Of a DNA stretch of 64,000 bases, positions 60,048-63,040 are shown one piece after another (within the stretch, counting starts at the first letter, position 1; each line of letters begins with the position of its first letter). The translations under genes were made by a program, and so were the position numbers. Source of the stretch: Thermoanaerobacter wiegelii Rt8.B1 (GTDB lineage Bacteria > Bacillota > Thermoanaerobacteria > Thermoanaerobacterales > Thermoanaerobacteraceae); NCBI RefSeq assembly GCF_000147695.2, contig NC_015958.1, positions 1,976,001-2,040,000 of the forward strand, read 5' to 3'. The notes beneath the pieces were generated by a model. The model worked only from the letters and a program-made list of their open reading frames with translations. It was not told the DNA's origin and made no database searches.

Positions 60048-60932
60048 TCATGGTATATCATCTAGGGTTTTAAATTCATATCCCTCGGCTTTAATACTTT
60101 TAATTATTCGATCAAGAGCTAAAGCATTGTCTTTTGAAACAGCATGTAAAAGTATGACAGCTCCCGGGTGAAGCCTTTTCATAACAGTATTATAGCTTTC
60201 CTCTGGTCCTCCAGGAAGTGGCTGCCAATCAGCCATCGCTAAACTCCAAAAAACTGTTCTATAACCTAACGATTTTGTAAGATACAAGGTTCTCTCACTA
60301 TACTCACCTTTTGGCGGTCTAAAATACTTCATCTTTTTCCCTGTCAGCTCTTCAAACATATCTCCTAACTTAGTTATTTCCTCTTTTACTTTTTCATCAG
60401 ATAAGGTAGGTAAGCTTGGATGATTCACTGTGTGATTCCCAACTATATGCCCTTCCTCCACCATCCTTTTAACTAAATCAGCCTGTTCTTTTACATAGGG
60501 CCCAGTTACAAAAAAAGCAGCTTTTACATTGTTTTCTTTGAGTATATCTAATATTTTAGGTGTATAACCATTTTCATATCCTTCGTCAAAAGTCAAATAA
60601 ACTACCTTTTTTGTCGTATCTCCTACAAAAATCGCATCGTATTTTTTTATAAGCTCCATTGCCAAAGGGGTAATTTCTGGAGTTTGATGATTTGGCAACA
60701 CCCTTAGTCCCCAGCTATACAAAGTGTTATCCAGATTTTCTGTATTGGTATAAACAGCATCGTTGGCCGTATTAGATATTTTTTCTTTAGGTTTTTCCAA
60801 AGGCTTTTGTAAAGCTTCATTTTGCATTTTTTGTTCTTCTGCCCTTGTAATGTATTTTTTTGCTATTCCACAAGAGGTAATCGAAAAACACAACAAAATT
60901 CCCATTAAGATATAGAATACTTTTCTTACCAT
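60048..60932 (-). CDS. pdaA: Polysaccharide deacetylase, PdaA-like (spore cortex), lipoprotein
   Basis: About 294 residues. Lipoprotein signal with lipobox SITSCG. NodB domain: VVYLTFDEGYENGYTPKILD (catalytic Asp-type residue in TFDEGYENG), FFVTGPYVKEQADLVKRM, GHIVGNHTVNHPSLPTLSDE (metal His-x3-His), YFRPPKGEYSERTLYLTKSL, TVFWSLAMADWQP and HPGAVILLHAVSKDNALALD. TFDxGYENG and the H-A-V-S-K-D-N-A-x-A-L-D block are specific for PdaA, which makes muramic delta-lactam in spore cortex. ATG at 60932 is preceded by GAGGTATGACC; an ATG two codons upstream overlaps this site. Confidence 0.88.
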   Translation of the reverse strand: MVRKVFYILMGILLCFSITSCGIAKKYITRAEEQKMQNEALQKPLEKPKEKISNTANDAVYTNTENLDNTLYSWGLRVLPNHQTPEITPLAMELIKKYDAIFVGDTTKKVVYLTFDEGYENGYTPKILDILKENNVKAAFFVTGPYVKEQADLVKRMVEEGHIVGNHTVNHPSLPTLSDEKVKEEITKLGDMFEELTGKKMKYFRPPKGEYSERTLYLTKSLGYRTVFWSLAMADWQPLPGGPEESYNTVMKRLHPGAVILLHAVSKDNALALDRIIKSIKAEGYEFKTLDDIP

Positions 60933-61003
60933 GGTCATACCTCATTTCAATTTTTCTATATTCCGTTTTTATTTTTTCTCTATATAAACATAATATTCTG
61001 TTT

Positions 61004-61564
61004 TTATTTGGAAGTATTTTTGTATATTTCACATACAGTATCTCTACAAAGGCAGAATCTACACAAGGCAAAAGAAGAATTTACTTCAGGAGAATAATCT
61101 CCTTCTTGCATTTTTTCCATTTGCTTTAATATATTAAAAAGTTCTTTTCTTAAGTGTCGCCTATTATAAACCTCAAACATAGTATTCCTATAAACTATTC
61201 GCCCTCTTTTTACTCTTTTTTGGTATACATCTTCTATTATCAAAAAATATGCAACTAACTGCATAACATCTTTATAATAAGGTGAATCCTCTGCTTCACT
61301 GCTCTTTAGTTCTATTGGTATCAATTCTTCTCCTAATCGGTAAATATAATCCGGTTTTCCAGATAAGCCATATTTATGTGATTTTAATAATTTTCCATAT
61401 ACTACTCCTTTTTCCTTTACCTCTTGTGGCTTATCTATGTATATTATTTTACCTCCTCGAAATCCTATGCTTCTTCTCATTTTTTTATAAAAAGACCTCT
61501 GTTCGATAACTGATTGAATAAGCAAATATATAGTAAAAAATAAAAAAATTATATTGAGAATCAT
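61004..61564 (-). CDS. Membrane-anchored Cas4-like nuclease, C-terminal half
   Basis: 186 residues. One N-terminal membrane helix (ILNIIFLFFTIYLLIQSVIE, 2-21) then a Cas4/Dna2-type core: KGVVYGKLLKSHKYGLSGKP, SGKPDYIYRLGEELIPIELK with Asp and E-L-K of the PD-(D/E)XK site, MQLVAYFLIIEDVY (the Q-x3-Y motif), and C-terminal LCRFCLCRDTVCEIY with the three cysteines that bind a 4Fe-4S cluster. The first Cys and N-terminal helix of Cas4 are absent here but present in the adjacent 92-residue protein, whose stop overlaps this start by 4 bases. The anchor predicts both halves face the cytoplasm. No cas1/cas2 or CRISPR array is near. Confidence 0.78.
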   Translation of the reverse strand: MILNIIFLFFTIYLLIQSVIEQRSFYKKMRRSIGFRGGKIIYIDKPQEVKEKGVVYGKLLKSHKYGLSGKPDYIYRLGEELIPIELKSSEAEDSPYYKDVMQLVAYFLIIEDVYQKRVKRGRIVYRNTMFEVYNRRHLRKELFNILKQMEKMQEGDYSPEVNSSFALCRFCLCRDTVCEIYKNTSK

Positions 61565-61839
61565 TTTAAAACCCTCATAATCGCAATTATTAATAAAATA
61601 GCTATAATTCCAAAAATAATCGCATATTTTTTATATCGCAATTTTACAATATCCTTGTAATATTTTTCATGATATTCTATCCCTTTCTTAAAGTTACTAA
61701 ATTGCAAATCTTGCTCTTTTGGATCTCTCAAACTATTGATATACTCTATTCCATATTTTTTTATATAATACCACTGATAGGGGCAATAAAGAAATTGATT
61801 TATCTCTGTGGCAGATATATACTTATCCTCTTTTTTCAT
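61561..61839 (-). CDS. Cas4-like N-terminal half with C-terminal membrane helix
   Basis: 92 residues. YISATEINQFLYCPYQWYYI is the Cas4 opening (S-x-x-E/D-I-x-x-Y/F-x-Y-C-P-x-x-x-Y) with the first cluster cysteine at about 18; NFKKGIEYHEKYYKDIVKLR supplies the G-x-x-x-H-E motif. Residues 72-90 (YAIIFGIIAILLIIAIMRVL) form a membrane helix at the C-terminus. The stop overlaps the start of the next gene (ATGA), so the halves are made together. Joined, they contain every Cas4 active-site and cluster residue, with two membrane helices inserted between. Confidence 0.72.
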   Translation of the reverse strand: MKKEDKYISATEINQFLYCPYQWYYIKKYGIEYINSLRDPKEQDLQFSNFKKGIEYHEKYYKDIVKLRYKKYAIIFGIIAILLIIAIMRVLK

Positions 61840-61885
61840 AATATAACACCTTTAAAAACAATATTTTTACAGACTTATTATACCA

Positions 61886-61921
61886 TATAAAAAAACGGGG
61901 TAAAACCCATTTTTACCCCCG
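61886..61921 (-). terminator. kdp operon terminator
   Basis: CGGGGTAAAA (61896-61905) pairs with TTTTACCCCCG (61911-61921, one bulged C); on the minus strand it is followed by TTTTTTTATATGG. The stem overlaps the last codons of the kdpD-like gene. Confidence 0.8.
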
Positions 61922-63040
61922 TGGATCGGCTACAACAAGAACATCTATAAATTTAGTACCTTTCATTATTCTTCTAACAATAGAACCCCTTATTATTTCA
62001 TCAATTCTTCTTCTCACAGACTGTCCTACTACAATTTGAGTAATTGCATTTTCTTCAGCAAATTTTATTATAGCCTTAGCAGGGTCATTTGATTTGACCA
62101 TGTAAAACTTTGCTTCTAATTTGTTGCACAGCATTGTGATTTCATCTAATTTTTTGAGTTTTTTATGGTCTCTTAAGTCATCATCATTGTAAACATGCAA
62201 AACAAAGAGGTCTGCTTTAAGCATTTTAGCTAACCTATAACCTCTTCGTATCAGATACTCTGCATTAAATCTCAAATTTACACAAACCAATATCTTTTCT
62301 TGTGCTCCTTTTAATCCTATAACGTTTTTTCTATTTTTATATTCCAAAAGCCTATCGTCAACCTCATTTGCTACTTCCCTCAATGTAAGTTCCCTTAACG
62401 CGGAAAGATTGCCAATTCTAAAAAAATTGTTAAGAGCAGTTTCAATCTTATCGGGACTATAAATCTTTCCATTTTTAAGCCTCTCTATCAAAGTCTCCGG
62501 CGAAACATCAACTACTTCTACTTCATCACATATTTCTAAAAGTTTATCAGGAATAGTTTCCCTCACCTTTACATTAGTCATGCGGTTTATATAATCATTA
62601 AGACTTTCAAAATGTTGTATGTTGACAGCAGTCATCACACTTATGCCGTTATCTATAAGCTCCAAAACATCTTGATATCTCTTTTCATTTTTTGAACCAG
62701 GAGCATTTGTATGGGCTAATTCGTCTACCACCACAACCTGGGGTTTTCTCTTTAAAATAGCCTCCAAATCCATTTCCTTAAGAATTGCACCTTTGTAATT
62801 TATTTCCTTTGGTGGAATAATTTCAAGGTCCCCTATCTGCTCCTCAGTGTCTTTTCTCCCATAGGTTTCTACAAAGCCTATTACCACATCTATACCTCTT
62901 GCCTTCATTTCATTGGCATCTTGCAACATGTGATAGGTCTTGCCGACACCAGGAGCAGCACCAAGATAAATCTTCAACCTTCCCTTATTAGCTCTTTCTA
63001 TTTCTCTCAAAAAATAATCAGGGGACTTCTTCGCCATCAT
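61913..63040 (-). CDS. kdpD: Short KdpD-type protein (sensor and USP domains only)
   Basis: 375 residues against about 890 for full KdpD. KdpD N-terminal domain: RLKIYLGAAPGVGKTYHMLQ (Walker A), RGIDVVIGFVETYGRKDTEE, PQVVVVDELAHTNAPGSKNE (Walker B), TAVNIQHFESLNDYINRMT, then a universal-stress-protein domain (about 245-370; KILVCVNLRFNAEYLIRRGY, VVGQSVRRRIDEIIRGSIVR). The four membrane helices, GAF and histidine kinase domains are absent, and the stop lies in the operon terminator, so this is a real short form, not a break. USP domains of KdpD bind c-di-AMP in other Firmicutes; that role is possible here. No kdpE follows. It begins 6 bases after kdpC. Confidence 0.88.
   Translation of the reverse strand: MMAKKSPDYFLREIERANKGRLKIYLGAAPGVGKTYHMLQDANEMKARGIDVVIGFVETYGRKDTEEQIGDLEIIPPKEINYKGAILKEMDLEAILKRKPQVVVVDELAHTNAPGSKNEKRYQDVLELIDNGISVMTAVNIQHFESLNDYINRMTNVKVRETIPDKLLEICDEVEVVDVSPETLIERLKNGKIYSPDKIETALNNFFRIGNLSALRELTLREVANEVDDRLLEYKNRKNVIGLKGAQEKILVCVNLRFNAEYLIRRGYRLAKMLKADLFVLHVYNDDDLRDHKKLKKLDEITMLCNKLEAKFYMVKSNDPAKAIIKFAEENAITQIVVGQSVRRRIDEIIRGSIVRRIMKGTKFIDVLVVADPRG

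Follow-up and report, generated by a model that had tools for sequence, protein, structure and literature searches.

The window analyzed here, a 64,000-nucleotide stretch of Thermoanaerobacter wiegelii Rt8.B1 DNA, holds two neighboring open reading frames on the minus strand, of 92 and 186 amino acids, both present where an earlier sequence-only reading had placed them. The upstream gene (61,561–61,839, minus strand), referred to as the N-half, encodes in order ISATEINQFLYC with the first cluster cysteine (C19), a G-x3-HE motif (G53-x3-H57) and a C-terminal hydrophobic stretch of 17 residues (Kyte-Doolittle 3.06), predicted to form a membrane helix (residues 72–88; 61,576–61,626, minus strand). 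The downstream gene (61,004–61,564, minus strand), referred to as the C-half, starts with a hydrophobic stretch (Kyte-Doolittle 2.29), also a predicted membrane helix (residues 1–17; 61,514–61,564, minus strand), followed by GKPD, ELK, Q-x3-Y and C-x2-C...C (D72, E85-L-K87, Q102-x3-Y106, C168, C171 and C178). Positive charges lie N-terminal to the N-half helix and after the C-half helix, and because of this charge placement both soluble parts are predicted to be cytoplasmic. The two genes overlap in a start/stop ATGA (61,561–61,564, minus strand), which is kept in the examined loci of family f1 of the order Thermoanaerobacterales and probably couples the translation of the halves.

Upstream of the N-half, a promoter-like site on the minus strand (61,877–61,904) reads TTTACC, 16 nt and TATAAT, with TG before TATAAT. 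This is a consensus match only; nine such sites are found in the region versus 11.1 expected, and the site before the N-half is no stronger than chance. Further upstream, we notice that the KdpD-like protein at 61,913–63,040 has just 375 amino acids, a length equal to that in other Thermoanaerobacter loci.

Descriptions of Cas4 give it as one soluble chain, and several RecB-type nucleases hold their cluster with one N-terminal and three C-terminal cysteines. We know of no settled role for the CRISPR-independent forms of Cas4. In the window, the C-half scores 107.2 bits against the NCBIfam Cas4 model TIGR00372, above the cut-off of 65, and the N-half scores 18.1 bits at model positions 2–66, the part that is missing from the C-half. 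Only one of the 160 window open reading frames of at least 60 amino acids contains the N motif, and it lies directly upstream of the C-half. Profile comparison gives the same division, with the N-halves matching Cas4 residues 2–55 and the C-halves residues 69–191, without overlap. The D, E-x-K and Q of the PD-(D/E)XK motif are all in the C-half, in order, and invariant in 10 Bacillota pairs, where all predicted functional residues of both halves fall among the invariant columns. The four cysteines of Cas4 are reached only by both proteins together (C19 with C168, C171 and C178), and every intact pair examined consists of two genes instead of one chain. The earlier proposal that the Cas4 motifs are divided between two membrane-helix proteins is thus confirmed by the motifs, the TIGR00372 scores, the invariant columns and the substitution ratios described below. 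By motifs, profile and modeled fold, the pair belongs to the Cas4 family, and it departs from that family in being two chains.

A division of this kind might be what is left of a single-chain Cas4 after decay or a frameshift, or be rejoined by programmed -1 frameshifting. At 61,564–61,570 of the window, directly before the N-half stop, we notice a slippery-type heptamer, TTTAAAA, which takes this position in most Thermoanaerobacter and some Thermoanaerobacterium and is not conserved in other relatives. It is missing in five loci (L009, L010, L011, L016 and L018) although the ATGA is kept there, and programmed frameshifting at the heptamer was rejected for its lack of conservation. Decay could explain the broken N-half frame of two draft genomes (L005 and L013), in which the C-half is intact; because both breaks are single-base differences at runs of A, however, they are likely sequencing errors. 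Moreover, where dN/dS is computable, it is approximately 0.04–0.14 for the N-half and 0.05–0.15 for the C-half, which indicates that both halves are under purifying selection. The split also occurs where a gap or an in-frame stop separates the halves and where the genes lie far apart. We regard decay or frameshifting as a very improbable explanation.

In order to obtain a one-chain fold, we used the pair of the Defluviitaleaceae locus L051 (3,653–4,552), because the window halves lie in different frames while the L051 halves share one. A single TAG stands between them, and this is the closest to a fused form that we observed. The AlphaFold2 input was the L051 read-through chain, with TAG read as Gln, and 22 relatives, none of them plasmid-derived; the resulting model has a pLDDT of 85.5 and a pTM of 0.77. 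Compared with solved structures, it matches Cas4-Cas1 with a Z of 14.7 (173 residues, rmsd 3.5) and type I-C Cas4 with a Z of 14.5 (170 residues). Both matches span model residues 3–300, with the membrane helices (74–105 and 110–135) as an insertion. The read-through chain is thus predicted to be one Cas4 fold with an inserted membrane hairpin. Since fusing the halves forces them into proximity, the model shows their compatibility rather than their binding. The N-half alone gave only chance-level matches to solved structures.

Type I-C Cas4 and the Cas4-Cas1 fusion (PDB 8d3l, 7mi4) match the read-through model best along its entire length, but they are soluble, single-chain and partnered with Cas1-Cas2. 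AddB/AdnA, Dna2, EXO5 and MGME1 belong to the same RecB-type nuclease superfamily, whereas they match with lower Z, are single chains and are not anchored in the membrane in the way of the pair. In the predicted fold, the helices sit at the loop that follows the G-x3-H helix of other Cas4 proteins, so the pair would correspond to a Cas4 with a membrane hairpin that is cut open on the outside.

The C-half is present in 20 of the 23 genomes of the order, with the N-half adjoining. The split form occurs in all 18 positive genomes of family f1, in two relatives within the order and in three Defluviitaleaceae genomes. The immediate neighbors in the window are kdpD and pdaA, not cas1 or cas2, so the earlier remark on the absence of nearby CRISPR genes is true of these neighbors; a separate one-frame Cas4 of the T. 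wiegelii genome lies approximately 633 kb from the pair.

The downstream neighbor, a pdaA-type polysaccharide deacetylase gene (60,048–60,938, minus strand), bears on another reading, in which the pair is one enzyme engaged in sporulation or cell-envelope work with PdaA, for example on DNA at the forespore septum. This gene (spore_pdaA, TIGR02884) directly follows the pair in families f1 and f2. Outside Thermoanaerobacterales, however, pdaA does not adjoin the pair: in Defluviitaleaceae (L051 and L105) the pair lies between YhaM-like and RlmD-like genes, and plasmids of non-spore-formers carry it among other neighbors. The promoter-like site before the pair is also of the vegetative type, though chance would account for as many such sites. 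The sporulation role suggested by the sequence-only reading therefore lacks support as a general function, and we consider a role with PdaA unlikely.

The search for homologues with the same split and membrane helices reached Bacillota relatives and plasmids across phyla. The pair occurs on plasmids of Bacillus subtilis, of planctomycetes and of the proteobacteria Aeromonas, Marinobacter, Vibrio, Pseudomonas, Microbulbifer, Acidovorax, Burkholderia and Rhodanobacter. Among the records matching the Aeromonas C-half, 24 of 28 are typed as conjugative or mobilizable; E. coli genomes searched with the Aeromonas DNA gave no match. The annotation of the N-half is often hypothetical or CFI-box, or absent. 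On the planctomycete plasmid pPL62-2 (L110, 2,337–2,836), we notice a C-half broken beside an IS701 transposase, with no N-half seen.

The membrane location would also suit a defense enzyme that degrades incoming foreign DNA, and PADLOC Cas4 models match both halves, though by family likeness only. Most loci examined have no defense-system neighbors, the exception being a DNA methyltransferase that adjoins the two planctomycete pairs. Phage records gave no match to the pair, which speaks against defense; viral contigs gave none either, and a phage origin of the pair was rejected. Constant presence across a whole order is also less typical of defense genes. A defense function is doubtful in our judgment, though less so than work with PdaA.

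In several carriers, the halves are not adjacent. In Vibrio gangliei, the N-half (E 1.1e-12) lies approximately 41 kb from the C-half. IncC-type plasmids carry a relative of the C-half some kilobases from a candidate N-half, which lies between mobI and repA and overlaps repA (L136, 3,128–3,415). Its match is weak (E 0.006–0.008), but it has an ATEL...C...RGE-x2-H pattern and a hydrophobic tail; it aligns with other N-halves at 79% probability, and its match to single-chain Cas4 is not significant. The candidate, as a weak match, is found in 1,092 records and the C-half query in 1,121, with nearly the same host breakdown. By sequence matching, about 1,100 IncC-type plasmids thus appear to carry both halves, the N-half match being weak. 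Both genes are annotated merely as hypothetical in the records examined. We had considered that IncC plasmids have no N-half and hence lost their cysteines, and dropped this idea after the weak N-half match, with its membrane tail, appeared beside mobI. A connection with surface or entry exclusion in IncC plasmids was dropped as well; a paper on exclusion (PMC11493245) mentions neither Cas4 nor nuclease.

The cysteine cluster of the IncC C-halves is degenerate (SCSCGG), and the C-half of a Comamonas plasmid has no cysteine cluster, with no N-half found. The IncC cluster would agree with a membrane complex that has lost its nuclease activity and acts as an iron-sulfur sensor or a structural partner of DNA transfer; a precedent for a non-enzymatic role is a virus nucleocapsid protein that derives from Cas4 (PMC4625639). 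Yet D, E-x-K and Q are invariant in the ten Bacillota pairs, and the alignment places D, acidic-x-K and Q in almost every plasmid homologue. We find a non-enzymatic complex improbable, slightly more so than the sporulation reading.

We built a tree from 50 sequences and 128 columns, including 17 single-chain Cas4 proteins. One branch, with support of 96/81, parts the split and IncC sequences from the 17 sampled single-chain Cas4. In the split C-halves, the catalytic Asp is preceded by a proline (Val in the IncC type), which appeared in none of the single-chain sequences compared. The tree suggests that the split likely arose once, a single origin being likely rather than proven because the single-chain sampling is limited.

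According to Hudaiberdiev et al. (2017; PMC5704561), most Thermoanaerobacteriales have a solo-Cas4, which is monophyletic there, and all members carry four cysteines. The pair shares with solo-Cas4 (COG1468, PF01930, TIGR00372) the same motifs in the same order and, by the model, the same fold; it differs in being two proteins with one membrane helix each. The words 'split' and 'transmembrane' are absent from the main text of that study, which files the Thermoanaerobacterales gene as solo-Cas4 with the division unmentioned there. Our search of the accessible literature found no split or membrane-held Cas4, though an earlier description may exist elsewhere. Cas4 searches recover the larger half only, and the division can be missed. 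The pair looks like an overlooked branch of Cas4, with the two-part design found again in distantly related bacteria and on numerous transmissible plasmids.

There is good support for the earlier suggestion that one Cas4-type nuclease is divided between two membrane-anchored proteins, from their co-occurrence across phyla, the unlinked N-halves, the non-overlapping profile matches and the predicted single Cas4 fold. We consider a two-protein Cas4-type nuclease at the membrane quite probable. Under this proposal, the two proteins would form one complex on the inner side of the cytoplasmic membrane, where a C-terminal helix would anchor the N-half and an N-terminal helix the C-half. The soluble parts may complete one cytoplasmic fold as a physical heterodimer, in which the first cysteine of the N-half and cysteines 2–4 of the C-half would together surround an iron-sulfur cluster. 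The putative active site for nuclease activity, formed by D, E-x-K and Q, would lie in the C-half.

More tentatively, we speculate that the nuclease trims DNA, probably single-stranded or end-bearing, as it enters or leaves through the membrane. The plasmid versions might trim DNA in conjugation, and the Thermoanaerobacter version perhaps acts in DNA uptake. This idea is drawn from the plasmid contexts and from the DNA uptake reported in Thermoanaerobacter (PMC9834392). The 'incoming DNA' role of the sequence-only reading is compatible with the plasmid contexts, though being carried on a mobile element is no proof of acting on the DNA that is transferred. A role in DNA transfer across the membrane is plausible to us, somewhat short of an even chance. 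Slightly less probable still is the broadest form of the idea, that an anciently split membrane Cas4, standard in several conjugative plasmid families including IncC and in some chromosomes, processes membrane-crossing DNA and is active only when the halves meet there. The two-protein membrane form gives Cas4 a location and a clear test, namely DNA crossing the membrane. Were a role in transfer demonstrated, it would bear on the IncC plasmids, which are major carriers of drug resistance.

The anchors vary among the carriers. The C-half helix is predicted in all 26 tabulated pairs. The N-half helix of proteobacteria is weak, or a CFI-box or short amphipathic tail takes its place. The CFI-box tail (NF041770) is found on many proteobacterial N-halves (L107, L113, L116 and others), and no paper on it was found in the literature searched. 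CFI-box-CTERM proteins thus have their C-terminal part in common with these N-halves, but the family is named for the tail alone, and the Cas4-type N-terminal motif is absent from its name. On the Pseudomonas plasmid pMRCP2 (L121, L135), the halves are divergent neighbors, the N-half match being weak, and both are without a membrane helix, which gives the impression that the two anchors were lost together.
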